Part shown: in pieces, positions 17,066-39,211 of the stretch
Position numbering within the stretch: position 1 is the stretch's first letter
Layout of the letters: each line of letters opens with the position of its first letter
NCBI GenBank assembly: GCA_036268875.1
Contig: DATATI010000079.1
Coordinates: forward strand, 1-64,000
DNA from: Polyangia bacterium
Lineage (GTDB): Bacteria; Myxococcota_A; Polyangia; Fen-1088
Direction of reading: 5' to 3'
DNA: 64,000 nt
Position numbers and translations under genes: made by a program
The notes under the pieces: generated by a model
Databases searched by the model: none
What the model was told of the DNA's origin: nothing
Seen by the model: only the letters and a program-made list of their open reading frames with translations

Positions 17066-17093
17066 CGGTCTCTTGGAATGCCGGGGGTTTTCA

Positions 17094-22217: not shown

Positions 22218-23927
22218 TTACGGCGGGGGCGCCGTGATGTCCAGACGCATGGGCGGGCACTGTGCGTCTGTCGGTTGCAGGCGGTAAACGGTGACCGCGC
22301 CGTCGGCAAAGGCGGATTTCAGCATCGAGCCCGGTTGCGCGAAGCTTTCGCGGTTCGTGGCCAACCAATCGTTGTCGACGATCAAAAGATCGACGTGAAA
22401 GACCCGGCGCAATGCGCAGGCTAGCATCGGTTGTGGAAATTGGTTTCCCATCGCCGAGATGAACGCGCGGTGCAAGGTCGGAACGTTTGACGAATATCCG
22501 TTGACGATGGGCCGCCGGTGGTCGATCTGCGCGTAGAGGCGCCACGCTTCGCGGGCGAAAGCTGCCACGTCTTCGCCGCCGGGGAACGGCACGTGCGCCA
22601 GCACGGTGTCCGGCAGCTGACTGGCGATGAAGGTGGTCCAGGCAGTGCGCGGCCCGGGCAATGGCAGGAGGCGCGCGGGCACGCTGAGGGTCTCGACCGC
22701 GCCCAATAAACCGACCGCGATCAAGGCCGCGCGCGCCCGCCGAGAATCGCCATAACGGCGCCAAAGACCTGACAGTCCCAGCCCGGCCAGCAGGACCAGG
22801 TGCATTTGCAGAAAGATGGCGCATCGAAATGGACTGCGGACCTCGCTGAAGCCCGGCAGCCGGCGCAGCGACCCGAACGGCGTCCACCCGAAGAAAGAGA
22901 CGTTGAGCCCCAGCGTGAGAAGCCCCGCGCTGACGGCGGCGCCCGCGACGTACCAGCGCCACGGCCCGGGCCGGTCGTTCGTCGGCTTTTTCAAACCGTA
23001 CGCGGCCAGCGCCAGCACGATCAGGCCGGGAAACAGCCCGCCGGTGTACGACGTCGGGTCTTCCAGCGACGGGAACGGGACCAGCGCGTCTTGGGGCCGC
23101 GAGAGAAAATCGCCTGGCGTGGCCGACAGCGACAGCACCAGCGCGGCGTCGCGCTGAAAGGCAAATTCACGGTGGATCCGCAGCGGCCCGCGCACGATGA
23201 GCCCGATCAGCAAGCCCGCGATCAGCGCCGCCGCGCCCATTCGCACGATGGCGGCGCGTGCGAAGCGGCGCTGCGCCAGCGCGACCAACGCGGCCGCCAC
23301 CGCGAACAGCGACTCGAACAAGGCCAACTGAAGGCTGGTCAGGACCTGCGCGACCAGCGCCGCCGCGGCGATGGCGACATGCCGCGTGCGGCCCGCGCCA
23401 CCGAAGCGCACCGCCGCGTCGAGAAAAGCGATGCTGGGCCCGATCATCACCACCGGCAGCTCGCCCTGCATCTTGGCGACGAAGGGCAACGCCACCATCA
23501 ACACCGCCGCCAACAACGCGGGCCATCGTTCGACGCCCAGCGCACGGGCGCAGCGGGAAGCCAGCACTCCGTTCGCGCACAACATCGCGAGAAGAACGAG
23601 GTTGGCCGCCAGCGCTGGCGGCGCGTGCAGCGCGAACAGCGGCGATGCCATCGCGCCCGGCAAAAGCATCGGCTCTGAAAACGCGAACGCCCCTTTGGTC
23701 GGATAAAAGATCGGCGCGTCCCATAGCCCGGCATAACCATGCAGAAACCGATCGGCGCTCCACCACAAGGTCCAGACGTCGAACAACGGAATCGTCGGCG
23801 CCGATTCCGTCCCCAGCGGAATCGCCGTCGACGGATGCAGGGCCAGTGGCCACGTGCACACGATCGCCGTCGCGAATGCCGCCGCGGCGACGGCCGCGCC
23901 CCAGCGTCTGCTGGACCATCCGTCCAA
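22218..23927 (-). CDS. Polytopic membrane protein, GT-C glycosyltransferase-like
   Basis: The 569-residue protein has about ten hydrophobic helices. A luminal Asp-rich loop after helix 1 (LFDVWTLWWSADRFLHGYAG) resembles the first loop of GT-C enzymes using polyprenyl-linked sugars. A soluble C-terminal domain runs from about 440 to the end, with RPIVNGYSSNVPTLHRAF and VDLLIVDNDWL. Similar proteins are annotated only as hypothetical or mannosyltransferase-like. It is convergent with the propeller gene (15 bp between stops) and heads the minus-strand group 22218-25695. Confidence 0.7.
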   Translation of the reverse strand: MDGWSSRRWGAAVAAAAFATAIVCTWPLALHPSTAIPLGTESAPTIPLFDVWTLWWSADRFLHGYAGLWDAPIFYPTKGAFAFSEPMLLPGAMASPLFALHAPPALAANLVLLAMLCANGVLASRCARALGVERWPALLAAVLMVALPFVAKMQGELPVVMIGPSIAFLDAAVRFGGAGRTRHVAIAAAALVAQVLTSLQLALFESLFAVAAALVALAQRRFARAAIVRMGAAALIAGLLIGLIVRGPLRIHREFAFQRDAALVLSLSATPGDFLSRPQDALVPFPSLEDPTSYTGGLFPGLIVLALAAYGLKKPTNDRPGPWRWYVAGAAVSAGLLTLGLNVSFFGWTPFGSLRRLPGFSEVRSPFRCAIFLQMHLVLLAGLGLSGLWRRYGDSRRARAALIAVGLLGAVETLSVPARLLPLPGPRTAWTTFIASQLPDTVLAHVPFPGGEDVAAFAREAWRLYAQIDHRRPIVNGYSSNVPTLHRAFISAMGNQFPQPMLACALRRVFHVDLLIVDNDWLATNRESFAQPGSMLKSAFADGAVTVYRLQPTDAQCPPMRLDITAPPP

Positions 23928-23965
23928 GGTGCGGAGCAGCGTAACTCAGAACGCGGACCTTGCGG

Positions 23966-24697
23966 TTACCGCGACACCACCAGCAGCCGCGCGCCCGCCA
24001 CGATCGCGCCCAGCGCGAACGCCACCGCCACCGCTGCCGGTCGAAACGTCGCCGCGTAGGCGGCGGAGGCGACGGCCGCGGCCCACATCAAACTTTCGCC
24101 GGCGAATGCCTGCGCCCAGCGCGGGCGCGGCGCCGCAGTCGAGGTCGGCGGCGCCGGTCCCCAGGTGGGCCACAGGCGTGGCACGGTCAGGAACTGGCGG
24201 AAGGCGTCGCCGTGCTCGTCCGCCAGGTGCGCCTCCTCGCGGCCGATCAGGCGGCGCACGAAGATGAACAGCCCCGTCATCAAAACGACGAAGCCGATCC
24301 GGCTGGCCCAAAGACCGATCCCGGCGGCGACCAGAAAATTGCCCAGGTAAAGCGGGTTGCGGACAAAACGATACGGGCCGACGATGACCAGGCGCTGGGT
24401 GTGCAGGCGCGCGTCCATCATGGTGTCGGCGTTCAGGTACGCGGTGGCCCAGCTGCGCAACGCCGCGCCGGCAGTGACCAGCGCGGCGCCGACGGCGTAG
24501 GCGACGTGGCGGGTCAGGGTTCCCGAAGACGGCAACCCGGCGGCGGCCAGGCAGCTGGCCAGCCACTGTCCGGCGCTTTGCCGATCGATCCACGAACAGG
24601 CGAAGCCGAGGCCGAAGATTCCGCCGATGAACCACATGCGGTGGCGAAACTCGCCCTCGCTGGCGATGGTCCAGGGGCGGTGGCGTCCGGGTTTCAT
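23966..24697 (-). CDS. ICMT/PEMT-type membrane methyltransferase
   Basis: Residues about 105-215 contain LVIVGPYRFVRNPLYLGNFL, VAAGIGLWASRIGFVVLM, then REEAHLADEHGDAFRQFLTV and PRLWPTW. This is the isoprenylcysteine carboxyl methyltransferase/phospholipid methyltransferase signature (GPYxxVRNPxYxG, then EExxLxxxFGxxYxxY). At least five membrane helices are present, including two beyond the catalytic core. The start ATG 24697 overlaps the upstream hydrolase stop by 4 bp. The acceptor is unknown; a lipid or hydrophobic acid is likely. Confidence 0.8.
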   Translation of the reverse strand: MKPGRHRPWTIASEGEFRHRMWFIGGIFGLGFACSWIDRQSAGQWLASCLAAAGLPSSGTLTRHVAYAVGAALVTAGAALRSWATAYLNADTMMDARLHTQRLVIVGPYRFVRNPLYLGNFLVAAGIGLWASRIGFVVLMTGLFIFVRRLIGREEAHLADEHGDAFRQFLTVPRLWPTWGPAPPTSTAAPRPRWAQAFAGESLMWAAAVASAAYAATFRPAAVAVAFALGAIVAGARLLVVSR

Positions 24698-25695
24698 TGC
24701 TGGCTCCGCACAAAATCGCCGGCGCGCGCGATGGCGGCCCGGGCCTGGGGCAAGACGCTGCTGAAGGCGGGAAACACATGGACCATGTTGCCTTCGATGT
24801 GGTGCACGACGCGCACGCCGGCGGCGGCGGCGAGGGCCGCCAGCTGCTGGTTGTCGGACAGCAACAACTCGGCGCCGCCACTTTCGACGAACAGCGACGG
24901 CAGTCCGCGCAGGTCGGCGTGAATGACGGACGCCCGGGCGTGGGCGACGTCGGCGCCGTTCAAATAACGTTCGGCGCTCTGTCCCAGGGCCGGCGCAGTC
25001 AGATAATCGAACGGGGCGTTCTGCTCGATTGATTCGCCCGGGCAGGCGAGATCGGTCCACGGCGAAAACAGCAACAACGCGCGCGGCAGCGGCAGCCCGG
25101 CGTCGCGCGCCTGCACCGCCGACGCCAGCGCCAGCGCGCCGCCGGCCGAATCGCCCGCCAGAAAAAAGCGGCCCGGCGAAAGACCGTCGGCCAGCAAGGC
25201 GCGATAGGCGGCGTCGGCGTCGTCGGCGGCGGCCGGGAACGGATGCTCGGGCGCCTTTCGGTAGTCGACGGCCACCACCCGAGCGCCGGCGGCGATGGCC
25301 AGGCGGGCGATCAGATCGCGGTGGGTCGCCGGCGAGCCGATGACGTATCCGCCGCCGGGAAAATAAAGCAGGGTGGGATGCGCGCCTTCGCTCCATCCGA
25401 CGGGCGTGGAGATTTCCGTCGGCCGACCGCCCAGGGTTGTCGATGCGTGCAGGATCTGCGCGCGGCTTTGCCGGTTGACGGGCGCGGCGGGCAACGATCG
25501 GCGCAGCATCGCCGGCGGCAGGGTCACGCCGCTGCGGATGGTCCGGCGAATCAGCGCGACGGCCAGTTCAAACAGAAACGGCCAGCCGGCGAGGCGCGGG
25601 CCGCGATACAGTCGCCGCGCCGTCGTGATCACGACGGTCCAGGTGACGCCGAGTGCCAGACGCAGAAAGACCACGCGCGCGCATGAAGATAACAC
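24694..25695 (-). CDS. HSL-type alpha/beta hydrolase
   Basis: The hormone-sensitive-lipase pattern is clear: TLLYFPGGGYVIGSPATHRD (109-126), VVAVDYRKAPEHPFPAAADD, the nucleophile elbow FFLAGDSAGGALAL (177-190) and a C-terminal His in GNMVHVFP. The oxyanion motif normally reads HGGG; here the first residue is Pro (PGGG). The N-terminal 55 residues are hydrophobic/basic and may anchor it. Its start overlaps that of the divergent membrane gene by about 13 bp, so one of the two starts may really lie further inside. Probable esterase. Confidence 0.82.
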   Translation of the reverse strand: MLSSCARVVFLRLALGVTWTVVITTARRLYRGPRLAGWPFLFELAVALIRRTIRSGVTLPPAMLRRSLPAAPVNRQSRAQILHASTTLGGRPTEISTPVGWSEGAHPTLLYFPGGGYVIGSPATHRDLIARLAIAAGARVVAVDYRKAPEHPFPAAADDADAAYRALLADGLSPGRFFLAGDSAGGALALASAVQARDAGLPLPRALLLFSPWTDLACPGESIEQNAPFDYLTAPALGQSAERYLNGADVAHARASVIHADLRGLPSLFVESGGAELLLSDNQQLAALAAAAGVRVVHHIEGNMVHVFPAFSSVLPQARAAIARAGDFVRSQQ

Positions 25696-27521
25696 CGCGA
25701 CGTCGCGGCTACGGCTTTGCCGTTCTGTTCGGCCTCGGCCTGCTGTGCAGCTTGCCGGCGCTGACGGCGGGTTTTTACGCTGACGATTATGTGCAGCTTA
25801 CCAAGCTGGAATCGCCGACGCCTCTTTCCGCGCGGCTTTCGTCGTTGTTCACGTTTTCCCCGGGCGGCGCGGCGACCAGCGATCTGATTGCCAGCGGCCA
25901 GCTGCCGTGGTGGACGTCGCCGCAGTTTCAGGTGCGGTTTTTTCGCCCGCTGTCGGCGGCGCTGATGATCGCCGACCACGCTCTGTTTGGTCTGCGGCCG
26001 CTGGGCTATCACCTGCACAACCTGCTGTGGTGGCTGCTGTGGCTGGCCGGGACCGCGCTGTTGTTCCGGCGCGTCCTGTCGCCGCCGCTGGCCTTGCTGG
26101 CGTTCGCGGTGTTCGCCGTCGACGACGCGCACTGGCTGCCCATCGGCTGGATCGCCGCGCGCAACGCGACGGTGGCGATGACCTGCGTGGTGTGGGGGCT
26201 ACTCGGGTACCTGCGCTACCGCGAGGAAGACTGGCGGCCGGGCATCGTTCTCGCCGTCGGGGCGTGGGCGCTGGGATTGCTGGCGGGCGAGGCGGCGGTG
26301 TCCGGTCTGATGTACGTCGTTGCTTATGAGTTGACGGCGGGCGGGTCCGGGCGCGATGGGTCACTCTGGCGGCGCGTGCGGTCCTTGGTGCCGGTCGGGA
26401 TCTTGCTGATCGGCTACGCGGCGCTTTATCGCCTGACCGGATCAGGTGTGCGCGGCTCGGGCGCGTACATCGATCCGGTTCGCGACGGCGCGGCGTTCTT
26501 GGGCGCAGCGGCGCAGCGCGTGCCGGCGCAGTTTGGCGCGCTGGTCTTTGGGGCGCCGCTGGATCTGTGGCTGCTGCCGCCGCTGCAGCCGATCTTGATC
26601 GCCATCGGCGTCGTCGCGGTGGTGGCCACCATGCCCTGGTTTCGGGCCACGGCGCGCGCCTTGCCGGCCCCGGATCAGCGCGGCGCGCGCTGGTTGGCCT
26701 GGGGCGCGGCACTTGGTCTGTTGCCGACCTCGGCGGGACTGCTGGGCGAGCGCTCGATCGCCGCGGCCAGCGTCGGCGGCGCGGTGCTGGTGGCGGCGCT
26801 GCTGCGGCAAACGAAAGCCTGGCAGCGCGCTTCGCGCTCGATCGCCGCGCCCGACGACAAATCGCTCCGGTCGCGCCGGCTGCGGCGGGTGGGGCTTTTC
26901 ATTGGGCTTTGGGCGCTGGCGCTTCCCAACCTGGTGCTGGCCGCGCCGTGGCTGGTGACGAAGCTGCTGTTCATGCGCTGGAACGGCCACCTCGTGGAAC
27001 ACGTGGCCGAGACCGCCGTCGCCGGGGCGGGGCCGGCTCGGCGAACGGTGTTGCTGTGGTCCGACGATGCGTTCGTTGGCTCGTACACGCCGATCGTCGC
27101 CCGTCTTGGCCATCCGGACGCGCTGCCTTCGTTTCGGGTCATGGCCATGGCGCCGGTGGATCTGGAGATCACGCGGGTCGCGCCCGACACGTTGGAGCTC
27201 GGGTGCGTGGGCGCGCCGCTTTTGGCCAGCGAATGGGAGCGGCTGTTCCGCACGCCGGCCCAGCCATTGGTGGCGGGAATGACGCTGCCGCTCGACGGCG
27301 TGACCGTCCGGGTGGTCGCGGACGTCGGCGGTCGTCCATCGCGGGTGCAATTTCGTTTCGTGGTTCCTCTTGACGATCCGTCGCTGCGTTTCCTGGAATG
27401 GCGCGGCCGGCGCCTGGTTTCCGCCGAATTACCGCCGCTTGGCCAGACGCGGCGTCTTTACCGCAGCCCGCCGCTGATCGCCGCCGACGACCACAACCGC
27501 CTATTAAATCATGGTCAATAG
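25683..27521 (+). CDS. Large polytopic membrane protein, GT-C/PMT-like
   Basis: After MKITPRRRG a first helix (FAVLFGLGLLCSLPALTAGF) is followed by YADDYVQLTK, an acidic first loop typical of protein O-mannosyltransferase/ArnT-like GT-C enzymes. RFFRPLSAALMIADHALFGL and GYHLHNLLWWLLWL, then HWLPIGWIAARNATVAM, match the family of poorly characterised glycosyltransferases with DUF-type names. About ten helices are followed by a soluble domain of some 140 residues. The stop is contained in the second half of the palindrome at 27515-27521. ATG 25683 was chosen; 25653 is less likely. Confidence 0.7.
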   Translation: MKITPRRRGYGFAVLFGLGLLCSLPALTAGFYADDYVQLTKLESPTPLSARLSSLFTFSPGGAATSDLIASGQLPWWTSPQFQVRFFRPLSAALMIADHALFGLRPLGYHLHNLLWWLLWLAGTALLFRRVLSPPLALLAFAVFAVDDAHWLPIGWIAARNATVAMTCVVWGLLGYLRYREEDWRPGIVLAVGAWALGLLAGEAAVSGLMYVVAYELTAGGSGRDGSLWRRVRSLVPVGILLIGYAALYRLTGSGVRGSGAYIDPVRDGAAFLGAAAQRVPAQFGALVFGAPLDLWLLPPLQPILIAIGVVAVVATMPWFRATARALPAPDQRGARWLAWGAALGLLPTSAGLLGERSIAAASVGGAVLVAALLRQTKAWQRASRSIAAPDDKSLRSRRLRRVGLFIGLWALALPNLVLAAPWLVTKLLFMRWNGHLVEHVAETAVAGAGPARRTVLLWSDDAFVGSYTPIVARLGHPDALPSFRVMAMAPVDLEITRVAPDTLELGCVGAPLLASEWERLFRTPAQPLVAGMTLPLDGVTVRVVADVGGRPSRVQFRFVVPLDDPSLRFLEWRGRRLVSAELPPLGQTRRLYRSPPLIAADDHNRLLNHGQ

Positions 27522-27530
27522 TTGTATAAA
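27501..27530 (+). promoter_or_regulatory. Palindromic operator and -10 element ahead of the GNAT/GH3 operon
   Basis: CTATTAA (27501-27507), 7 bp, then TCAATAG (27515-27521), followed 3 bp later by TATAAA (27525-27530). A poor -35 (TTAAAT, 27504-27509) lies within the left arm. The same palindrome with the same spacing occurs at 32642-32662 before the lipoprotein gene. It lies 43 bp upstream of the next start. A dimeric regulator is implied but not identified. Confidence 0.6.
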
Positions 27531-27572: not shown

Positions 27573-28421
27573 ATGACCACGTCCGGTCGCAAGCTGTCGG
27601 CCCGTTACCGCCGGCTTCGTTCCATCTCGGTGGACGATATCAACGAGATGCACAAGCTGTTCTCGGCCTTTTACGAGAACGCCGACGCGCCGACGTTCCT
27701 GCGTGACCTGGCCAGGAAAGACGGAGCCATCATCGTCCGCGATCGGCAGACCAAACGGATCTGCGGGTTCACCACGATCAAGAAGGTCAGCCTGTGGGAC
27801 GGCCGCCGGCGGGCGGTGGGCGTGTTCAGCGGTGACACCGTCATGGAACCGTCGTGCTGGGGCGATCGCGCGCTGAAGGATGCCTTCGCTCGCCATCTGC
27901 TTTTCCTGTGGCTGACGTCGCCGGGCGTGCCGCTTTACTGGCTGTTGATCTCGAAGGGCTACAAGACGTACATGTTGCTGGCGAACAACTTCGTCAATTT
28001 TCATCCCCGCCCCGACGGCGGGCGCGATCCCCGGCTGGAACGTCTGGTGCATGACTACACCGACAAGCTGTTTCCAGGGAAATACGATCCGCGACGAGGG
28101 ATTCTGGATTTTGGCGCCGGCTCGCAGCGGCTGCGCGAGGACGTCGCGCCGATTACCCCGGAGATGCGGCTGCACAATCCGGTGATAAATTATTTCGAGC
28201 GCACCAATCCCGGCTGGCGCGTCGGGCACGAGCTGCCGTGCATCGCCGAGATCTCGATCTCGTTGTTGCGTCCGTACCTGTTCAAGGAACGGCTGAAGGC
28301 GGCAGCGTCAGCGTCGGCCGCGTCGCTGCCGCCAATCGCCGCGTCGTCCTCGCCTTCAGATGCCTGGTCGACGGTCGCCGACGAACCGGGGGACGGGCCG
28401 CTCTCGGTCGCCGAAAAATGA
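27573..28421 (+). CDS. GNAT-like protein of the GH3 locus
   Basis: The 282-residue protein carries LRSISVDDINEMHKLFSAFY, then DGAIIVRDRQTKRICGFTTI and VGVFSGDTVMEP, then PLYWLLISKGYKTYMLLANN. The layout (sensor helix, strand with self-description, then strand and helix) recalls GNAT acyltransferases, but no clean acetyl-CoA loop is visible, so the assignment is weak. The C-terminus is Ala/Ser-rich and disordered. GGGAGGGGAAG before ATG 27573 is a strong ribosome-binding site. The stop overlaps the GH3 gene start (ATGA). Confidence 0.55.
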   Translation: MTTSGRKLSARYRRLRSISVDDINEMHKLFSAFYENADAPTFLRDLARKDGAIIVRDRQTKRICGFTTIKKVSLWDGRRRAVGVFSGDTVMEPSCWGDRALKDAFARHLLFLWLTSPGVPLYWLLISKGYKTYMLLANNFVNFHPRPDGGRDPRLERLVHDYTDKLFPGKYDPRRGILDFGAGSQRLREDVAPITPEMRLHNPVINYFERTNPGWRVGHELPCIAEISISLLRPYLFKERLKAAASASAASLPPIAASSSPSDAWSTVADEPGDGPLSVAEK

Positions 28422-30097
28422 ACCCGCCGCAGGCGCGGCTAGCGCGGGGTGCCCGCTTGATCTCGCACGGTGCTGCGTTGCTGGCTTGCCGCCCCGCGGC
28501 CCGCGCCTTCGATCGCGCCTTGCGCGACATCGAAGGTACCCAGGCGCGCAACCTGCAGCGGATCATGGCCGGTATCGCCGGGACCGCTCAGGCGCAGCGT
28601 TTGCGGTTGCGGCCCGGCATTGGACCGGCTGACTTTCGCGCGCGGGTGCCCGAGGCCGCCTACGACGACGTGGCCGAATCGATCGACCGGCAACGCGGTG
28701 GCGCGCCCGGCGAGCTGACCGTCGAACCGTGCGCGCGCTATCAACCAACCAGCGGCTCCAGCGCGCGGGTGAAATGGATCCCGTACACGGCGGCCTTCCT
28801 GGCCGAGCTGGATGCGGCGATCTCGCCCTGGGGTTTTGATCTCTACCAAAGCACGCCGGCGGTTCGGCGCGGGCGTCACTACTGGTCGCTGTCGTGGTTG
28901 CCGACCAGCCTGCGCGCGGGCGCCCACGCCGCGCCCACGAACGTGAACGACGATCGACAGCTGTTGTCGCCGGTCAAGCGGGCGTTCACCGCGCTGACGG
29001 CGGCGGTGCCGCCCTGGGTGGCGACCACCGATTCGTCCGATGATTCGTTCTTCGCCACCACCTGCTTTCTGGCGGCGGCCGATGATCTGACCCTGCTGTC
29101 GGTGTGGAGCCCGACCTTCGCGCTCAACCTGCTCGAGCGTCTGACCGCCGACCGGGCGGCCATCGCCGACGTCCTGGAGCGCGGCGCCTGGGACGAAGCG
29201 CATGGGCATTTCACCGCGCCGGCGCCGCGCGCGTCGCGGGCGGCGGCGTTGTTGCGCGCGTGGTCCGGCGAAGAGGCGCCGGAATTTTTCCGCCAGCTCT
29301 GGCCATCACTGGCCCTGGTCAGCGCGTGGGACACGGCGGGCTCGGCGCGCTGGGCCGCCGCGCTGGCGGCGTTGCTTCCGCAGGCACGTTTTCAAGGCAA
29401 GGGTCTGTGGGCCACCGAGGGCGTCGTGACGATTCCGTACCGGGGCCGTTATCCGCTGGCCGTTCGCAGCCACTATTTTGAATTCGTCGATCTCGACAGC
29501 GGCCAGGCGTGCTTTGCCTGGGAATTGCGTCCCGGCCAGACGGTGCGGCCGCTCTTGACCACCGGCGGTGGTTTGCTGCGCTATCGACTGGAGGATCGCC
29601 TGCTGGTGCGCGATTTTCTGGGCGCCACGCCGTGCTTTGAATATCTCGGCCGACTGGCCGACGTGGATATGGTGGGCGAGAAGATGAGCCCGCAAGCGGC
29701 CCGCGCCGGCCTGGACGCGCTGGCCGGCCAGGACACCGCCTGTCGCCCGCTGAGCCTGCTGGCCGTCACGCCGCCCGGCACCGCGGAAAAGCCCCGCTAT
29801 GTGGCGCTGTGCGAAGGCGAGCGTTCGGTCGGCGCCGACGACGAGCGGCGGGGCGCCCTCCTCGATCGATCGCTGCGCGCCGTGTTTCATTACAACCTGG
29901 CCCGCGACCTGGGACAGCTGGCGGCGGCGTGCGTGCTGACGCTGGCCGATGCGCGCCGCCTATATGAAGACATCGGCGCTGCCCGGGGCATGATCAGCGG
30001 CAACATGAAGATCGAACCGCTTCTGCTTTGCGACGACGCGCGTTCCGCCGCGCTGGTCAGTGAACGAATCGCCGGCGCGATCGGCCGAGGGACGTAA
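28418..30097 (+). CDS. GH3-type acyl-adenylating enzyme
   Basis: TSGSSARVKWIPYT (residues 111-124) is the phosphate-binding loop of GH3/ANL adenylating enzymes (TSGTTxxxKxIPxT). LLSVWSPTFALNLLERL, then GLWATEGVVTIPY and YFEFVD are further GH3 signatures, and GGGLLRYRLEDRLLVRDFLG then FEYLGRLADVDMVGEKMS is the catalytic end (YRxxD...FxGR...GEK). GH3 enzymes activate a carboxylate as AMP ester and conjugate it to an amine. The sequence thus predicts amide or ester formation on an unknown acid. ATG 28418 overlaps the previous stop; the next start abuts its TAA. Confidence 0.85.
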   Translation: MNPPQARLARGARLISHGAALLACRPAARAFDRALRDIEGTQARNLQRIMAGIAGTAQAQRLRLRPGIGPADFRARVPEAAYDDVAESIDRQRGGAPGELTVEPCARYQPTSGSSARVKWIPYTAAFLAELDAAISPWGFDLYQSTPAVRRGRHYWSLSWLPTSLRAGAHAAPTNVNDDRQLLSPVKRAFTALTAAVPPWVATTDSSDDSFFATTCFLAAADDLTLLSVWSPTFALNLLERLTADRAAIADVLERGAWDEAHGHFTAPAPRASRAAALLRAWSGEEAPEFFRQLWPSLALVSAWDTAGSARWAAALAALLPQARFQGKGLWATEGVVTIPYRGRYPLAVRSHYFEFVDLDSGQACFAWELRPGQTVRPLLTTGGGLLRYRLEDRLLVRDFLGATPCFEYLGRLADVDMVGEKMSPQAARAGLDALAGQDTACRPLSLLAVTPPGTAEKPRYVALCEGERSVGADDERRGALLDRSLRAVFHYNLARDLGQLAAACVLTLADARRLYEDIGAARGMISGNMKIEPLLLCDDARSAALVSERIAGAIGRGT

Positions 30098-31291
30098 ATG
30101 GATCTCGCCTCGTACGTCGCGCGCTATCCGAATGTTCGCGTGGCCACCCGGGCCGACAACGAATTGATCCTGGGTTTTTACCGCACGCTGGGCATGCAGG
30201 GCGGCGGGTTCAACATCCTGTTCGTCAAGGATCCGGACTACTTTCGTTTCCTCGACTTTGAAAGCGCCGGCCACGCCGCCTGCGTGGTGCAGGACGACGA
30301 CGGCAAGGTCGAGGGCATGTTCGCCTTCGGCATCCGGCCTTGTTACGTCGACGGCCAGCCGACGCACGTGGTGCACGTCTCCGATCTGCGCTTCGCCTCC
30401 AGCCGCAAGCGCAAGAGCAAGTTCGACTGGAAGCTGATGGCCCGCGATCTCGTCGAGGAGCTGCCGCTGGTCGACGAGTTCAAGGGCGCCCGGCACCTGC
30501 TGGGCTCGTTCGTGATGGCCAACGCGAAAGCCCGCCAGGCCATCGCCTCGCAAAAGGCGCCGTTCGACATCAGCCCCATCGCCAACTATCAGATGGTCAG
30601 CTTGCTGGCGCGCAAGCCGCTGCAGTGGGCGGGCTGGCGGCGTTCGAAGGCGGCGCGAAAATGGCAGGTTTCGCGCGGGAGCGCCGACGATCGCGAGCCG
30701 CTGCGCGCGTTCCTCGATCGGCAAAACCGCCGCCGGGCCCTGGGCTACGTGTTCGCCGGGCCCGACGACGAGCTCGACCGGCGCCTGCGGGTCTGGGATC
30801 GCTTCAGCATGGAATCGTTCTTCGTCGCTCGGGCCGGCGACGGTGCGGACGCCGGCGCCATCGTCGGGTGCTTGGCGCCCTGGGATCTGTCGGCCGGGCG
30901 GCGGATCGTTCTCGACGCCTTCCCGCCGGTGCTGGCCGCCGCCGCCACCATGGTCCGTCCGTTCATGAAGAAGATTCCCCGTCCCGGGCAGCCACTGCGG
31001 ATCCTGTACGTGACCACCCAGGAGATCGCCCTTGATCTCGACGGCGGGCAGCGGGCTTCGGTTTTCTCGGCGCTGCTGGACGCGCTTTACGCCAGCGGTG
31101 TGGCCGACGATTTTCAGATGGTGGCCCTGTGCGATTACGACAACGACAGTTTCTTGCCGCAGATCGATCCCGGTTACTTCACCATGAAGACGCCGACCAT
31201 GCTTTACCAGCTGTGCCGGCGCGGAGAGACCAACGTCTTGCGAGAGGCCGAACTGCCGTGCCACGTGGGCCACGAGATGTGTCTGACCTAG
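30098..31291 (+). CDS. Second GNAT-like protein of the GH3 locus
   Basis: The 397-residue protein contains VRVATRADNELILGFYRTLG and FVKDPDYFRFLDFESAG, then AACVVQDDDGKVEGMFAFGI and THVVHVSDLRFASSRKRKSK. The last reads like a GNAT core with a basic loop where CoA would bind. A second half (RRALGYVFAGPDDELDRRLR...IVGCLAPWD) suggests a duplicated fold. There is no signal peptide. ATG directly abuts the GH3 stop and the end overlaps the next gene by 13 bp, so the four genes are one unit. It could transfer or recognise the GH3 product; function not known. Confidence 0.6.
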   Translation: MDLASYVARYPNVRVATRADNELILGFYRTLGMQGGGFNILFVKDPDYFRFLDFESAGHAACVVQDDDGKVEGMFAFGIRPCYVDGQPTHVVHVSDLRFASSRKRKSKFDWKLMARDLVEELPLVDEFKGARHLLGSFVMANAKARQAIASQKAPFDISPIANYQMVSLLARKPLQWAGWRRSKAARKWQVSRGSADDREPLRAFLDRQNRRRALGYVFAGPDDELDRRLRVWDRFSMESFFVARAGDGADAGAIVGCLAPWDLSAGRRIVLDAFPPVLAAAATMVRPFMKKIPRPGQPLRILYVTTQEIALDLDGGQRASVFSALLDALYASGVADDFQMVALCDYDNDSFLPQIDPGYFTMKTPTMLYQLCRRGETNVLREAELPCHVGHEMCLT

Positions 31292-32700
31292 CGCAGCCCC
31301 CGGCGCCGCCCGATCGGATCGGCCTGAACCGGTCCGAGCGCGTGTACCTGGCCCTGGAAGGCGTGGCCGGCGCCATCGGTCAGGTTCACGTGCTGCGTTT
31401 TCGCCAGCCCCACGCCGAGTCCGAGCTGCGCGCAGCCCTGCGCGAGCTGGTCCGCCTGTGCCCGCGGCTGCGATCGGTGATCGAACGGCGATTCTTCGGT
31501 GCTTGCCTGGCCGTGTTGCCCGACGGCGCGCGGGTCGATGAGCTCTTCCAGCAAGCGTTTCGATCACTGCCCATCGGCACCGACGAGGCGGCGGTGAACG
31601 CGTCGCTGAACGACCTGGTCAACGAACCGTTCGCCCTGGAGCAGGGTCTGCCGTGGCGGGTGTGCTTTCTCAGCGGCAAGGGGCCGCCGATCTTGATCGT
31701 CAGCCTTCACCACGTCGTGTGCGACGGGCGCGGGATGATCACGCTGCTGGAGAACCTTCTGCGCGGCCTCAACGGCCAGGGTCACCTTCCCATGCCGGTC
31801 GAGGACTCCAGCCTTTTGCCGGCCATCTGGCCCTTGCCGGTGCCGTCGCGGTCGGCCGTGCCGGGCCGCTTGCTCAGCCTGTGGCGATCGTACCGGCTGG
31901 AAAGGCGCTCCCACGCCCGCTGGAAAAATCAGCGCGCCCTGACCCTGGTGAAAAAGAAAGCGCGCTTTGGACCGACGGGCATCGTGCTGCACACCGCGCC
32001 GGCGTCTCTGGACGCGATCAAGGCGGCGGCCGAGGCGCGCGACTGCACGGTGACCGAGCTTTTGGTGGCGGCGCTGGGTACCAGCTTCGCGGGGCCGGCC
32101 TCGGGCGATCCGGCGGCGGTGGCCAGCGTGCGCCTGTCCGTCGATCTGCGGCCGTACTTTCCCGTCGGGCGCCGCCCGACGCTGGGCAATTACGTGGCCA
32201 GCGTGGTCGTGCACCTGACCAACAACGGCGATCGCGAGGTGGCGGTGGCGTCCGCGCGGGCGCAGCTGCGCGAGGCCCGGCGGCGCTTCGAGGCGCGGGA
32301 GATGAGCTATCCGTTGCTGCGCGCCGAGCTGGCGCCGCGGCTTTTGGGCCGCCGCCTGTACGGAGCGTGCGCGCGCTGGTTCAAGCGCCGAGGCTTCCTG
32401 CAAGACGTCACCTTGCACATCTCCAACCTGGGCAGCGTCGACCGGTTGAACCGCCACGGTGATCGGGCGCAGGCCGGCGCGCTGGCCTTCTTCACGCCGG
32501 CCCTGGGACCGTATGTGGGCTGCGTGGGCCTGGGCGGGTGCCTCTATCTCGGCGTCAGCTATCCGCGCAGCGAGGTCGATGAGGCCGCCATCAAGCAGGC
32601 GCTGATCGATTTTGACCGCCAGCTGGCGGCGCTGTGCGCAACTATTGAACGTAAGTCAATAGAGTCTATACTGGGCCGCGCGGCCGGGAGGCAAAGATGA
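31279..32700 (+). CDS. Condensation-domain-like acyltransferase (CAT superfamily)
   Basis: The active-site motif LIVSLHHVVCDGRGMITLLE (HHxxxDG, residues about 140-155) is diagnostic for the CAT/condensation/PapA/WS-DGAT superfamily. VTELLVAALGTSFAG, VRLSVDLRPYFPVGRRPTLG and DVTLHISNLGSVDRL follow the expected order. As a stand-alone enzyme it should make an ester or amide from an activated acyl donor. GTG 31279 is used because the frame has no better start, and it overlaps the previous gene by 13 bp. Last gene of the GH3 operon; its 3' end contains the promoter of the following lipoprotein gene. Confidence 0.8.
   Translation: MSDLAQPPAPPDRIGLNRSERVYLALEGVAGAIGQVHVLRFRQPHAESELRAALRELVRLCPRLRSVIERRFFGACLAVLPDGARVDELFQQAFRSLPIGTDEAAVNASLNDLVNEPFALEQGLPWRVCFLSGKGPPILIVSLHHVVCDGRGMITLLENLLRGLNGQGHLPMPVEDSSLLPAIWPLPVPSRSAVPGRLLSLWRSYRLERRSHARWKNQRALTLVKKKARFGPTGIVLHTAPASLDAIKAAAEARDCTVTELLVAALGTSFAGPASGDPAAVASVRLSVDLRPYFPVGRRPTLGNYVASVVVHLTNNGDREVAVASARAQLREARRRFEAREMSYPLLRAELAPRLLGRRLYGACARWFKRRGFLQDVTLHISNLGSVDRLNRHGDRAQAGALAFFTPALGPYVGCVGLGGCLYLGVSYPRSEVDEAAIKQALIDFDRQLAALCATIERKSIESILGRAAGRQR
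32642..32672 (+). promoter_or_regulatory. Promoter with palindromic operator for the downstream lipoprotein gene
   Basis: A sigma-70-like TTGAAC (32645-32650), 16-bp spacer and TATACT (32667-32672) lie in the end of the acyltransferase gene. The palindrome CTATTGA-N7-TCAATAG (32642-32662) is perfect and overlaps -35 and spacer, so a bound dimer would block RNA polymerase. The arrangement copies that at 27501. Confidence 0.7.
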
Positions 32701-33737
32701 CGATCTCGTTGAACAGCTACAAAGGACGGATGGCGGCGGTGATCGCCGTGTGCCTGGCGGCGGGATGCGGCGGGGGATCGTCGGGCGCGAACGGCAGCGG
32801 GGGCGGCAGCGCCATCGGCGGCAGCAGCGGCAGCGGCGGCAGCGGTGGATTAACGGGCAGCAGCGGCGGCGCCAGCGGCTCTGGCGGCAGCGTCAGTGGC
32901 AGCGGTGGCGCGCCGGCGGGTGGCGACGGCGGCGGCAACGACGACGGCGTACCCACCGGCACGGCCTGTCCGCCGAAGACCGCCTTCACGCTGGGCATCC
33001 ACATCGTCATCAACTTGAGCTGGGACGGGTCGCTCGGCGCCGCCGCGGGCTCGGGTGATTTTCATCTGTGGACGCTGGCCACGATGACCGCCAACGGTCC
33101 GGCCTTGACCGGCAACATCCAGGTCTGTGGGAACACGCTGCCGCCCTTGCCGCTGGCGGCGCTGATCGGCGGCGGAACCGTGCAACTGGAAATTTCGCAG
33201 ACGGCGTGGGACGTGCCGTCGGCGCCGAAGTTTCCCACCAGCGGTACGCTGGCCGACTGGACCACCGGCGCGGCCATCACCACCATGCCGACCATCGCTC
33301 TGGTCGGGCTGACCTTGCCCGATCCGGCGTCGGCGTGGCCGGCGTCTTACACCATGGTCAACGCCGTCGATGTTGATCAGGACGGCAACCCCGGGATCAC
33401 CGCCACGCCCAAGACCGGCGCTGGTTTCGTGCAGACGCCGGTGGCGTTGCCGCTGCTGGGCGTCGGCGCGCGGGCCGACAAGCTGTATTTGGCTTCCCGA
33501 ACCGGCGTGGCGTTGAGCGGCACCTTGACCTCGTGCACAGAACAGGCGGGCAATGCCACCATCACCTTCTTCGACAGTCACGTGGTCGGCTGTCACGTCA
33601 ACGGCGGCGCGGCTTGCACCGCCGATCAGATCAACTTTGTCGATACGAACCGCACCGCGTACACGAAGATGACCGGCACCTTCACCTCGCGCATTCTGGC
33701 CGACAGCGCCAGCTGCGCCGACGCCCGCGGACTTTAG
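32697..33737 (+). CDS. Secreted Gly/Ser-linker lipoprotein of unknown function
   Basis: A lipoprotein signal (AAVIAVCLAAGC) is followed by about 65 residues of Gly/Ser repeats. The globular domain begins at AFTLGIHIVINLSWDGSLGA; its strand-rich sequence contains FHLWTLATMTANGPALTGNI and conserved-looking cysteines (C at TSCTEQ, VGCHVNGGAACTADQ, SASCADARGL). I do not recognise the domain. It starts inside the end of the acyltransferase gene (ATGA) but has its own promoter with the shared palindrome, which ties it to the GH3 locus by regulation. Confidence 0.7.
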   Translation: MTISLNSYKGRMAAVIAVCLAAGCGGGSSGANGSGGGSAIGGSSGSGGSGGLTGSSGGASGSGGSVSGSGGAPAGGDGGGNDDGVPTGTACPPKTAFTLGIHIVINLSWDGSLGAAAGSGDFHLWTLATMTANGPALTGNIQVCGNTLPPLPLAALIGGGTVQLEISQTAWDVPSAPKFPTSGTLADWTTGAAITTMPTIALVGLTLPDPASAWPASYTMVNAVDVDQDGNPGITATPKTGAGFVQTPVALPLLGVGARADKLYLASRTGVALSGTLTSCTEQAGNATITFFDSHVVGCHVNGGAACTADQINFVDTNRTAYTKMTGTFTSRILADSASCADARGL

Positions 33738-35573: not shown

Positions 35574-36341
35574 TCAGACGGTCCAGGGCACCGTCGGCAA
35601 ATCCATGCGGACGCTGGCCTTCTTGAAAAAACCACCGATGCTGGCCCGCACCTGACGGCCGGCGGCAGGCCGGATCTTGGCGATGGCATGGGGGGTGCCG
35701 CCCTTGATCACCACCAGCCGGTTCGGCTTCGGCAGCACGTACGATCCGAAGCCGCTGGCCATCAGCAATTCATTGGCGTCGCTGTTGTCCAGGTGACTTT
35801 GCCAGGGCGGCGGCGAAGGCCGCGCCGCGGTGTGGCGCAAGCGATGAAAGTAGACGCCGCTGTCGCGCGGCAGGGCGGCGGCGTGCGACAGCAACAGTTC
35901 GCCGCCCCACTCGATGTTCCAATCATTGTGCGCGTAGAAGATCCAGCTGCCGGTGTTGTCTTCCGAGTCACGGTGCCAGACCAAGCCCTGCCCGACCTGA
36001 TAGACGGTGGGCATGGCGCTGAAGATCTTCCAATCAGTCTGGTAACGACCGACCGAGGCGGCGAACAGCGGGGCACAGTCGACCATCGCTTTCATCACGT
36101 CGTCGATGGGCGCGCCGCAGGGATACTGGGCGTCCCATTTGTGTCCCCAGCCGACGGTGGGCCCGCGCAAGGTGTCGCTGTCTTCCAGCAGCCAGTGACC
36201 TTGCAGTCCCAGCGCGCGCACCGGGTTCATCGGCTGGATCTGAAAATAATTCCACAGTCGATCCCACACCTCCGCGCCAAGCAGGTTGTCGATGACGGTG
36301 AAGTGATCGGTCTGCGCGGTCACCTTGGTCAGGCTGGACAT
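35574..36341 (-). CDS. 2-oxoglutarate/Fe(II) dioxygenase-like protein (copy with full metal triad)
   Basis: The 255-residue protein has the facial triad: VWHRDSE (H123, D125) and GGTPHAIAKI (H219), followed by an Arg-rich segment (AAGRQVRASI) that could hold 2-oxoglutarate. WNIEWGGELLL and LPKPNRLVVIKG are typical of prolyl-4-hydroxylase-like 2OG oxygenases. Start: ATG 36341 (MSSLTKVTAQ). It is divergent from a paralogue of the same length class; 66 bp separate the two starts. The substrate is not known. Confidence 0.82.
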   Translation of the reverse strand: MSSLTKVTAQTDHFTVIDNLLGAEVWDRLWNYFQIQPMNPVRALGLQGHWLLEDSDTLRGPTVGWGHKWDAQYPCGAPIDDVMKAMVDCAPLFAASVGRYQTDWKIFSAMPTVYQVGQGLVWHRDSEDNTGSWIFYAHNDWNIEWGGELLLSHAAALPRDSGVYFHRLRHTAARPSPPPWQSHLDNSDANELLMASGFGSYVLPKPNRLVVIKGGTPHAIAKIRPAAGRQVRASIGGFFKKASVRMDLPTVPWTV

Positions 36342-36407
36342 CGCCGGCGAAAAATAACACGGCGACGTGGGCGGGGCGGACAATGCTGGTATCGTTGTAA
36401 GGCTTCG

Positions 36408-37145
36408 ATGTCGAAATCGCCCGCGGTGGTCTTTCAAACCGAATCGCTGACCGTCATCGACGATCTGTTGCCGGCCGCCGCCGTCGACGCGCTGTGGAAC
36501 TATTTTCAGCTGCAGTCGTTCCAACGCATCGACGCGCTGGGCATGCAAGGACAGTGGGCGCTGGAAGACAGCGGCGTCCTGCGCGGTCCGACCACCGGCT
36601 GGCAGCGGCGCTGGGACGCGCAATACCCGACGAAGACGCCCATCGACGCGGCCATCAAAGCGGTCGCTGACAGCGCCCCGCTGTTTGCCGCCACCGCTGG
36701 CCGGCGCGACGGCGACTGGAACGCCTTCAGCGCGTTTCCAGCGATCTATGTGGCCGGGCAAGGCCGTCTGTGGCATCGCGACGGCGACGACGAAACCGGG
36801 AGCTGGACCTACTTCGCTCATCCGCAGTGGAACATCGAGTGGGGTGGCGAGTTGTTCGTGGCTTCTGAGCGCGACCTGCTGCCGGCATCCGGCGCCTTTC
36901 TGCACCGACTGCGCCCGATGGCCGATCATCCCAACCCGCCACCCTGGAAAAGCCATCTGGACAACGACGACGCCAACCGCGCCCTGCTGGAAGAGGGAAG
37001 CGGCGTCGGATCATTTGTGGCGCCCAAGCCGAACCGGCTGGTGGTGGTCAGCGGCGCCGCCCCGCGATCCATGGCCAAGGTGCGGGCCTCGGCGGGCCGC
37101 CACGCCCACGCCAGCCTGGGTGGCGTCTTCAAGAAGACGACCTAG
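36408..37145 (+). CDS. 2OG/Fe(II) dioxygenase-like paralogue lacking the distal iron-ligand His
   Basis: The 245-residue protein aligns end to end with the divergent neighbour: LWNYFQLQSF, RGPTTGWQRRWDAQYP, LWHRDGDDETGSW (H123, D125), HPQWNIEWGGELFV and KPNRLVVVSGA. Where the neighbour has TPHAI, this copy reads APRSM, so the distal His is Arg220 (codon 37065-37067). With one ligand lost it may bind metal poorly, act on another chemistry (halogenases change the Asp, not the His), or be a non-catalytic partner. The frame and codon use look intact. Confidence 0.8.
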   Translation: MSKSPAVVFQTESLTVIDDLLPAAAVDALWNYFQLQSFQRIDALGMQGQWALEDSGVLRGPTTGWQRRWDAQYPTKTPIDAAIKAVADSAPLFAATAGRRDGDWNAFSAFPAIYVAGQGRLWHRDGDDETGSWTYFAHPQWNIEWGGELFVASERDLLPASGAFLHRLRPMADHPNPPPWKSHLDNDDANRALLEEGSGVGSFVAPKPNRLVVVSGAAPRSMAKVRASAGRHAHASLGGVFKKTT

Positions 37146-37504: not shown

Positions 37505-39211
37505 ATGCGTCGCTTTTATTCAGCAGACGTTTTCCTGTTCGGCGCGTTGTCGATGGCGCTGTCGTGTACCGGCAGCATCATGGACAGCAGCGGCGAGCCG
37601 TCGGGCGGAGGCGGTTCAGGTTCAGGTGTCGTTCCGCCGGGCGGCAGCGGCTCCGGAACCGGATCGAACAAGCCGGGTGATCCCAACGCCGCCGGCCCGC
37701 TGCCGCTGCAGCGGTTGACCAATGCCGAGTACAACAACACGGTTCACGATCTGCTGGGCGACAACACGCAGCCAGCCAGTCAATTCGCCAGCGATCGGTT
37801 GACCACTTTCGAATTCCGGCGCGCCGGCGACGTGGCCGTGCAGGACGCCACGCTGTTTCGCACCGCCGCCGAGACGCTGGCCGCCGCCGCCGCGCCGAAG
37901 CTGGTGAACGGCATGTTGCTGCCCTGCGATCCGACCACGGGCGAGGACGCCTGCGCGCAGAAGTTCATCACCACCTTCGGCCAGCGGGCCTTTCGCCGTC
38001 CGCTGACCACCGACGAGATCACGCGCCTGACGACGTTCTATTCCAACGCGCGCACGTCGTTGAAGCTGTCTTTCACGGACGCCGCCGGACTGTTGATCGA
38101 AGGCATGCTGCAGGCGCCGCAGTTTCTTTATCATTGGGAAGCGGCGCCCGCCGATCCGCTGATTCACGACGGCCCGGTGGTGCGGCTGGCCGGCTATCAG
38201 GTCGCTTCGCGCCTGTCGTATTTCATCTGGGGCTCTATGCCTGATGACGATCTGCTGGCCGCGGCGGGCGCCGGGCAGCTGGACACCGCGGCGGGCGTGC
38301 AGACGGCGGCGCACCGGTTGCTGGCCGATCAAAAAGCCAAGGCCACCGTCTCGCGCTTTTTCACCGACTGGATGGCGCTGGATGGCCTCGGCGATCGAAC
38401 GAAAGATCCGACGGCGTATCCCAATTACACGGCCGCCGTGCAGCAGGCGATGCTGGACGAGACCACCGCCTTCGTCCAGAACGTGGGTTTTGGCGGCGAC
38501 GGGCGGCTGGCCACGTTCCTGGGCGCGCCGTACTCGTTCGTGAGCAACACCTTGGCGTCTTACTATGGCGTGCCGGTGTCGGGCGCGATGCCGCAGAAGA
38601 CGGATCTCAATCCGGCGCAGCGGGCGGGCTTTTTGACCCAGGGAAGTTTTCTGGCCATGACCGGCGCGCCCGATGGTTCGAACCCGGTCCTGCGTGGCAA
38701 GGCGGTCTACACCAAGTTGCTGTGCAACGTGCTGCCGCCGCCGCCCAACAACGTGCCGGCGCCCAAGCCGGCGTCGGCCGGCGGCACCACCCGCCAGCGC
38801 TTTGAAGAGCACGATCAGAACGCCTGCGCCAAGGCCTGTCATGCGCAGATGGATCCCATCGGCTTTGCCTTCGAGAACTACGACGGCATCGGGCAATACC
38901 GGACCATGGACAATGGACTGCCGGTCGACGCCACCGGCTCGCTGCTGCTGGACGGGTCGATGCAGTCGTTCAACGACGCCGTCGGGTTGACCGGTCTTCT
39001 GGCCAAGAGCGATAACGTGCGCACCTGCTTCGCCGGCGAGTGGTCGCGCTTTGCTCTTTCACGCGCCGACACCGATGCCGACGCGCCGTCGTTGCAGGCG
39101 ACGGCCCAGGCCTTCGCCACCGACAGCGCCAGCCTTCAAGATTTGATGGCCGCCATCGCGACGATGCGTAGCTTCCGTTTTCGCAGTCTGTCACCGGGAG
39201 AGATGCCATGA
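37505..39211 (+). CDS. DUF1592-family secreted protein (copy 2), unusual CxxxCH
   Basis: A signal (FLFGALSMALSC) and Gly/Ser linker are followed by the same domain series as at 17094. Landmarks are LQRLTNAEYNNTVHDLLGDN, QRAFRRPLTTDEITRLTTFY, APQFLYHWEAAP, ASRLSYFIWGSMPDDDLLAA and GSNPVLRGKAVYTKLLCNVL. ACAKACHAQMDPIGFAFENY then gives CxxxCH instead of CxxCH: relative to copy 1 (FCSACH) the first Cys is shifted by one. It shares only moderate identity with copy 1. It overlaps the DUF1552 gene by 4 bp and has its own upstream region. Confidence 0.9.
   Translation: MRRFYSADVFLFGALSMALSCTGSIMDSSGEPSGGGGSGSGVVPPGGSGSGTGSNKPGDPNAAGPLPLQRLTNAEYNNTVHDLLGDNTQPASQFASDRLTTFEFRRAGDVAVQDATLFRTAAETLAAAAAPKLVNGMLLPCDPTTGEDACAQKFITTFGQRAFRRPLTTDEITRLTTFYSNARTSLKLSFTDAAGLLIEGMLQAPQFLYHWEAAPADPLIHDGPVVRLAGYQVASRLSYFIWGSMPDDDLLAAAGAGQLDTAAGVQTAAHRLLADQKAKATVSRFFTDWMALDGLGDRTKDPTAYPNYTAAVQQAMLDETTAFVQNVGFGGDGRLATFLGAPYSFVSNTLASYYGVPVSGAMPQKTDLNPAQRAGFLTQGSFLAMTGAPDGSNPVLRGKAVYTKLLCNVLPPPPNNVPAPKPASAGGTTRQRFEEHDQNACAKACHAQMDPIGFAFENYDGIGQYRTMDNGLPVDATGSLLLDGSMQSFNDAVGLTGLLAKSDNVRTCFAGEWSRFALSRADTDADAPSLQATAQAFATDSASLQDLMAAIATMRSFRFRSLSPGEMP

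Follow-up and report, generated by a model that had tools for sequence, protein, structure and literature searches.

A conserved operon of a GH3-type enzyme, two GNAT-like proteins and an HHxxxDG acyltransferase in a Polyangia bacterium, and its possible acyl-amide product

Four adjoining genes, encoding a GNAT-like protein (GNAT1), a GH3-type acyl-adenylating enzyme, a second GNAT-like protein (GNAT2) and a stand-alone HHxxxDG acyltransferase, were found to form a real and widely conserved unit, a conclusion that we hold with very high confidence. The set occurs in many bacteria, both from soils and among marine oil degraders. The genes were studied in a stretch of 64,000 nucleotides (the window), which comes from contig C79 of the draft genome G000 of 6.15 Mb. 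The gene content and neighbours of the window suggest a member of the Myxococcota. The case that the operon is a fatty-acid-responsive pathway to an acyl-amide lipid, of the N-acyl amino acid or N-acyl amine type, is evenly poised. A distinct branch of GH3 enzymes is shown here to be linked, in many bacteria, with two unclassified GNAT families, with HxxxDG acyltransferases and with exporters.

Organization of the operon

The junctions of the four genes (Table 1) were found as described in the first-pass annotation, with an ATGA overlap of the GNAT1 and GH3 genes, followed by the TAA of the GH3 gene directly abutting the ATG of the GNAT2 gene, and a 13-bp overlap of the GNAT2 and acyltransferase genes. 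By the ORF coordinates, the acyltransferase and lipoprotein genes also share an ATGA overlap; the lipoprotein gave no match in the Pfam scan. The Pfam scans of the operon proteins detected no carrier-protein domain and no adenylating enzyme besides GH3, and the operon is not an NRPS or PKS assembly line. No exporter gene was found to adjoin the operon of the window, and this version contains no Rieske, ferredoxin, desaturase-like or radical-SAM tailoring gene.

The palindrome CTATTAAATCATGGTCAATAG was found to end at the stop codon of the preceding gene, and TATAAA comes next, at 27525-27530. The presence of this operator and -10-like box at the end of, and just past, the 25653-27521 gene indicates that the operon starts on its own. 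The abhydrolase, PEMT-type methyltransferase and membrane protein genes (22218-25695) were found on the strand opposite to the operon. The neighbours at 22218-27521 (membrane glycosyltransferase-like, methyltransferase and hydrolase genes), which had been associated with the unit, were not conserved with the cassette elsewhere and are not counted as part of it.

Table 1. Positions of the operon genes and operator-like sites (window coordinates unless a contig is given)
Feature	Position	Strand	Description
GNAT1	27573..28421	+	282 aa, single GNAT fold; ATG start; in-frame TTG at 27522
GH3-type acyl-adenylating enzyme	28418..30097	+	559 aa; PF03321, PF23571, motifs
GNAT2	30098..31291	+	397 aa; tandem GNAT, N-myristoyltransferase-like fold
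Stand-alone HHxxxDG acyltransferase, condensation/PapA type	31279..32700	+	GTG start; PF00668
Lipoprotein-like secreted protein	32697..33737	+	own promoter-like site with operator copy
Operator-like palindrome CTATTAAATCATGGTCAATAG	27501..27521		0 mismatches to CTATTRA-N7-TYAATAG; overlaps last codons of upstream gene
Second operator-like palindrome CTATTGAACGTAAGTCAATAG	32642..32662		0 mismatches to CTATTRA-N7-TYAATAG
Strict sites of the genome	G000:C29:68082, 71715, 93896, 100697; C36:157783; C21:60838; window 27501, 32642		

The GH3 enzyme

The window GH3 was found to match PF03321 (E=5.6e-29, 101.7 bits against a cut-off of 23.6) and PF23571 (E=2.9e-12, 47 bits against a cut-off of 23.6), and all three nucleotide-binding motifs, TSGSSARVK, LWATEG and GLLRYRLED, were intact when compared with the motifs given in PMC12493201. 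By these Pfam matches and motifs, the protein is a predicted GH3 acyl-acid-amido synthetase. Its profile matches in the PDB were plant GH3 enzymes only, with E down to 9e-30. In a tree of 66 GH3 proteins, including 25 from the window's phylum that are not linked to GNAT1, all of the GNAT1-linked GH3s were found on one side of a branch and the 25 unlinked ones on the opposite side (100% SH-aLRT). The window GH3 grouped with gammaproteobacterial GH3s at 45-47% identity, against about 32% to the Rieske-type GH3s of its own phylum. OlsH was the only bacterial GH3 with an experimentally shown function found in the literature searched.

The GNAT-like proteins

The GNAT1 and GNAT2 proteins of the window gave no Pfam match and none above the cut-off in NCBIfam, and a comparison of 48 GNAT1 members with Pfam matched no GNAT family and no consistent family. 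By these profile searches, GNAT1 is a family without a curated Pfam or NCBIfam model. The relatives of GNAT2 showed weak PF00583/PF13527 matches, with 12 of 41 matching PF00583 (up to 3e-5).

Confident AlphaFold2 models were obtained from alignments of the 48 GNAT1 and the 41 GNAT2 relatives, with pLDDT of 88.7 and 84.9, respectively. The GNAT1 model was matched by Foldseek to GNAT enzymes of the PDB (E ~1e-5), with 232 matches at E<=0.001, and the 50 of them that were listed were nearly all acetyltransferases or N-myristoyltransferases; the TM-scores were modest because the protein is bigger than the GNAT core. The GNAT2 model matched N-myristoyltransferases and the tandem GNAT MAB_4324 (E ~1e-11), and this modelled fold resembles long-chain acyl-CoA N-acyltransferases. 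The GNAT fold proposed for both proteins from the letters is thus borne out by the models and their Foldseek matches.

The pyrophosphate-loop position of GNAT1 was found to contain CWGDRAL and not R/Q-x-x-G-x-G/A, so its use of acyl-CoA is only putative; the GDT, WxLISKGxKT and ExPC positions were invariant among its relatives. The window GNAT2 was found to be 42% identical to that of the deltaproteobacterial locus L086 and at most about 32% identical to all others, so that the window and L086 represent one subtype and the substrate of this GNAT2 may differ.

A paralogue of GNAT1 was also found in the same genome (L153:9108-9848, which is G000:C21:60108-60848, minus strand). It is 47% identical, does not contain the SKGYKTY motif and is shorter by about 29 residues near its end; an operator copy is present and a GH3 gene is absent nearby. 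It is perhaps decayed or regulatory.

The HHxxxDG acyltransferase

The fourth protein was found to match PF00668 (E=9.7e-9, 34.9 bits against a cut-off of 30.6) and to contain the motif HHVVCDG, in which the H, D and G of HxxxDG were invariant among 12 relatives; HxxxDG was present in 17 of the 18 acyltransferase-family ORFs. The PF00668 match and the HHxxxDG motif place it in the condensation/PapA/CAT superfamily.

Conservation and co-inheritance

A GNAT1 profile search of public genomes gave at least 565 loci, of which the best 80 were analysed; a search of genome contigs for close relatives with GNAT2 only had found nothing. GH3 was present in 68 of the best 80 loci and GNAT2 also in 67, and an HxxxDG-type acyltransferase was found within about 10 kb in 46 (32 PapA-like, 14 of the window's type and nine of a third type). 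An HlyD or RND gene was found within the same distance in 54 of the 80. Many of these loci came from genera known for hydrocarbon degradation, and the taxonomy of the 80 is not an unbiased census since they were ranked by similarity to the window.

In the window's phylum, relatives of GNAT1 were found in 41 of 379 genomes and relatives of GNAT2 in 12 of 284. A strong GNAT1 (E<1e-50) was present in 21 of the 379 genomes. Of these 21, 20 were found to contain GH3, compared with 68 among the remaining 358 (Fisher p=6e-13, with no correction for relatedness); GH3 lay on the same contig as the strong GNAT1, at most 5.4 kb away, in 17 of the 21. The pairwise distances of GNAT1, GH3 and GNAT2 were correlated (r 0.79-0.84) in 50 thinned loci, and none of 2000 Mantel permutations was as high. 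The two same-family relatives of the window's genome, G269 and G365, were found to be without the gene set. The neighbourhood search that the first-pass annotation had named as a check thus shows wide co-occurrence, both in the best 80 loci and in the genomes of the phylum.

Variant loci

The usual gammaproteobacterial locus was found to contain GNAT1-GH3-GNAT2-PapA-like-HlyD-RND genes, preceded in many by a divergent AraC regulator; this gene order was found in Alcanivorax, Thalassolituus, Oleispira, Pleionea and Exilibacterium. In the loci of Marinobacter, no PapA-like gene was detected. The PapA-like partners of Gammaproteobacteria match PapA_C, and in three Moritella loci (L035:13752-16157, L049 and L076) the PapA-like protein was found to be fused to the HlyD membrane-fusion protein, which suggests that acylation is tied to export. 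The loci of Aquabacterium contained GNAT1-GH3-GNAT2, often with HlyD/ABC genes, and a window-type acyltransferase in convergent orientation. The locus L086 was found to contain all four window genes together (window-type acyltransferase, GH3, GNAT1 and GNAT2), along with a GDSL hydrolase and two more acyltransferase-like genes.

A Rieske oxygenase was found near GH3 in 12 of 16 Myxococcota-like core loci, at times with ferredoxin and desaturase-like genes. Three loci (L136:9318-17592, L143 and L144) were larger clusters with GNAT1, GH3, two to three Rieske oxygenases, ferredoxin and desaturase-like genes, and they look like secondary-metabolite clusters. The Citrobacter portucalensis IncF plasmid (L155:9941-19250) was found to contain GNAT1-GH3, two radical SAM genes, an acetyltransferase, two more radical SAM genes and a PAP2 phosphatase, and this version had no near match among E. 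coli genomes. The Rieske versions of the Myxococcota-like genomes and the radical-SAM version of Citrobacter suggest that some members may make a product other than a simple lipid. An operon of amidase, EmrA-like, EmrB-like, GNAT1, GH3, TolC-like and GNAT2 genes was found in Acinetobacter baumannii (L154:9034-18829), on a chromosome filed in PLSDB as a plasmid.

The operator-like palindrome and its regulon

The first-pass annotation had described the lipoprotein gene as co-regulated with the operon, and this is supported by perfect copies of one palindrome before GNAT1 and before the lipoprotein gene. The latter is preceded by a promoter-like site, TTGAAC-16-TATACT, at 32645-32672, and CTATTGAACGTAAGTCAATAG holds its -35-like box and precedes its -10-like box. 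The strict form CTATTRA-N7-TYAATAG was found at eight sites in the genome and at none in the backward-read control; with up to two mismatches the genome contained 19 sites, a few of them intragenic, and the control still none.

Besides those of the window, strict sites were found to precede genes for an acyl-CoA ligase of the AMP-binding type, for a Mpo1-like 2-hydroxy-fatty-acid dioxygenase and/or a 358-aa protein encoded divergently, and for a DUF1571 protein. The other strict sites lie before an acyl-CoA dehydrogenase gene, next to which are thiolase, FabG-like and MaoC genes, before the gene for a CglB-like lipoprotein and before the shortened GNAT1 paralogue. Weaker sites were found before or across the starts of genes for an aldehyde dehydrogenase, a PI-PLC-like phospholipase, a trypsin-like protease, an amine oxidase and further secreted proteins. 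The palindrome thus marks a small regulon in which genes for fatty-acid activation and beta-oxidation are joined by those for lipoproteins and for secreted enzymes; since the regulon includes secreted proteins without a lipid link (trypsin-like, CglB-like), the operator is not a pure fatty-acid signal.

Two TetR-type regulators were found in the contig C29 stretch that contains sites, one with a strong FadR-like match (1.8e-57, slightly below the cut-off) and the other with a weak FasR-like match, and these are candidate regulators of the palindrome. Outside the window's own genome, the operator gave one weak match among the other cassette loci (L054), which indicates that it is host-specific. 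The Rfam search found no element.

Proposed pathway and alternative explanations

From the computed gene set, folds, motifs, conservation and the operator common with fatty-acid genes, we infer chemical steps, an order for them, a lipid product and its export in the host. The GH3 enzyme would convert a long-chain or hydrophobic acid with ATP to acyl-AMP and, in the way that OlsH acts on ornithine, pass the acyl group onto an amine. The role of GNAT1 and of the tandem GNAT2 would be to acylate an amine or to supply the modified amine, with acyl-CoA or acyl-ACP as the donor, and the HHxxxDG protein would attach a further acyl group through an ester or amide bond. The product would then reach the envelope or the outside, for which other bacteria may use dedicated RND, ABC or MFS-type exporters. 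A fatty-acyl product is favoured because of the co-regulation with fatty-acid genes and the N-myristoyltransferase-like fold of GNAT2, and delivery to the envelope or outside because of the exporter linkage in other bacteria. The lack of a PF13444 (OlsB-type) gene in the genome also counts in favour of the acyl-amide reading. The joining of an acid with an amine or alcohol without carriers, which the first-pass annotation had proposed, may stand as the natural reading of a GH3 beside an HxxxDG acyltransferase and by the precedent of OlsH (PMC12493201), although the adjoining genes that it had drawn in are not conserved.

The main rival is a diffusible non-lipid small molecule (a signal, antibiotic or siderophore-like amide), in which case the acid activated by GH3 would be aromatic or short, the scaffold would be decorated by the GNATs and the HxxxDG protein, and an exporter would secrete the product. 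We consider this rather unlikely. The RND, ABC and MFS/TolC-type exporters that accompany the cassette agree with it, as do the Rieske, ferredoxin and desaturase-like genes of the Myxococcota-like loci and the radical-SAM genes of Citrobacter, which are typical of secondary metabolism, and by their PDB names the plant GH3s act on aromatic and jasmonate acids; however, the window version is without such tailoring genes and has its operator in common with fatty-acid genes, and the PapA/condensation-type partners and the N-myristoyltransferase-like GNAT2 favour long acyl chains. Plant GH3s can also inactivate hormones through conjugation, and a comparable inactivation or conditioning of fatty or hydrophobic acids, as detoxification or storage with no dedicated product, would suit the operator common with fatty-acid catabolism. 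It is very unlikely, as two GNATs and an HxxxDG acyltransferase kept with GH3 exceed the needs of a conjugation step, and the exporter link and the PapA-HlyD fusion suggest a product made for export.

A GH3-dependent ornithine-lipid pathway, in which the product would be an ordinary membrane lipid and the HxxxDG protein would stand in for OlsI as the O-acyltransferase, has the OlsH precedent (PMC12493201) and the absence of a PF13444 (OlsB-type) gene from the genome on its side, and an alpha/beta-hydrolase and a PEMT-type methyltransferase were found within 5 kb, as OlsI and OlsG lie beside OlsH. This is nonetheless distinctly improbable, since OlsH/OlsI need no GNAT, and a plain lipid of the inner membrane would not be expected to come with a conserved exporter. 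The neighbouring abhydrolase/PEMT pair was rejected as OlsI/OlsG, because the strand is the opposite one and the pair did not accompany the cassette at its other loci. That the four enzymes are unrelated and adjoin by chance or in a loose neighbourhood, for which the lack of the set in G269 and G365 might speak, is barely credible and already contradicted by the conservation of the set in gamma-, beta- and deltaproteobacteria and Myxococcota-like genomes, the correlated trees and the linkage statistics.

The acyl-amide pathway can also be stated more widely, as a widespread and so far undescribed group of fatty-acyl amides that are exported and perhaps act like surfactants. Their dedicated pathway, GH3-GNAT-GNAT-HxxxDG, would be switched on with fatty-acid degradation, be common in hydrocarbon-degrading marine bacteria and have branches adding Rieske oxygenases or radical-SAM enzymes. 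The chances of this wider reading are put slightly below even. A secreted acyl-amide, if true, would add a new class to the bacterial lipids and might play a part in the use of oils and lipids. As the hosts of the cassette include well-studied hydrocarbon degraders and Acinetobacter, the product is directly searchable by gene deletion and lipidomics, and the regulon suggests fatty acids as an inducer to try.

Comparison with known systems

The closest precedent is OlsH of Singulisphaera acidiphila, a GH3 that uses ATP to join free fatty acid and ornithine into N-acyl-ornithine and works with the O-acyltransferase OlsI; its authors expect other N-acyl amino acids from other bacterial GH3s (PMC12493201). 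Like the window operon, OlsH/OlsI (Sinac_1599/1601) contain a bacterial GH3 with the three nucleotide-binding motifs in an operon with further lipid-modifying genes, and for both it is proposed that a fatty acyl-amide forms at the expense of ATP and independently of ACP or CoA. Unlike it, the partner of OlsH is an alpha/beta-hydrolase O-acyltransferase with no GNAT and no HxxxDG protein, whereas the window-type GH3s are accompanied by two GNATs, HxxxDG acyltransferases and exporters; they are set apart from OlsH by these partners. The claim that no pathway with this gene set is described holds in part: no description of the cassette was found in the literature searched, and OlsH/OlsI are a partial precedent (PMC12493201). 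Literature searches that combined GH3 with Alcanivorax, Acinetobacter or myxobacteria gave no account of the cassette, and GH3 is not mentioned in the aminolipid review PMC11631085.

The plant GH3 enzymes (JAR1/GH3.11, GH3.12 and GH3.15) were the sole solved relatives of the GH3 profile, with matching domain order and motifs, but their similarity to the window GH3 is low and they are not found in such operons. The N-acyl amino acid synthases and OlsB/GlsB-type N-acyltransferases are alike in GNAT-type N-acylation and in the equivalent bond of their products (N-acyl amino acids), whereas their acyl donor is acyl-ACP or acyl-CoA and no GH3 takes part, and their models were matched by neither GNAT1 nor GNAT2. 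The N-myristoyltransferases and MAB_4324 share the fold of GNAT2 at 10-13% identity, and a protein substrate is not implied. The PapA and stand-alone condensation-type acyltransferases share the HxxxDG motif and PF00668, but the window operon is without a polyketide synthase or NRPS gene and GH3 is its only adenylating enzyme. ArpAB of A. baumannii was rejected as a described version, no GH3 neighbour being reported (PMC5387308), and the NasY/stieleriacine N-acyl-tyrosine pathways were rejected for their different synthase and lack of GH3 (PMC12479983).

Other features of the window

Two clearly similar divergent genes were seen by eye in the ORF list at about 35574-36347 (minus strand) and 36396-37145 (plus strand), with a gap of about 50 bp and with protein starts MSSLTKVTAQTDHFTVIDNLLG and MSKSPAVVFQTESLTVIDDLLP. 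The regions 17073-20209 and 37505-39211 were found to contain lipoprotein gene pairs which, by eye, are like the paired DUF1592/DUF1588 and DUF1552 genes of Planctomycetes and Myxococcota.
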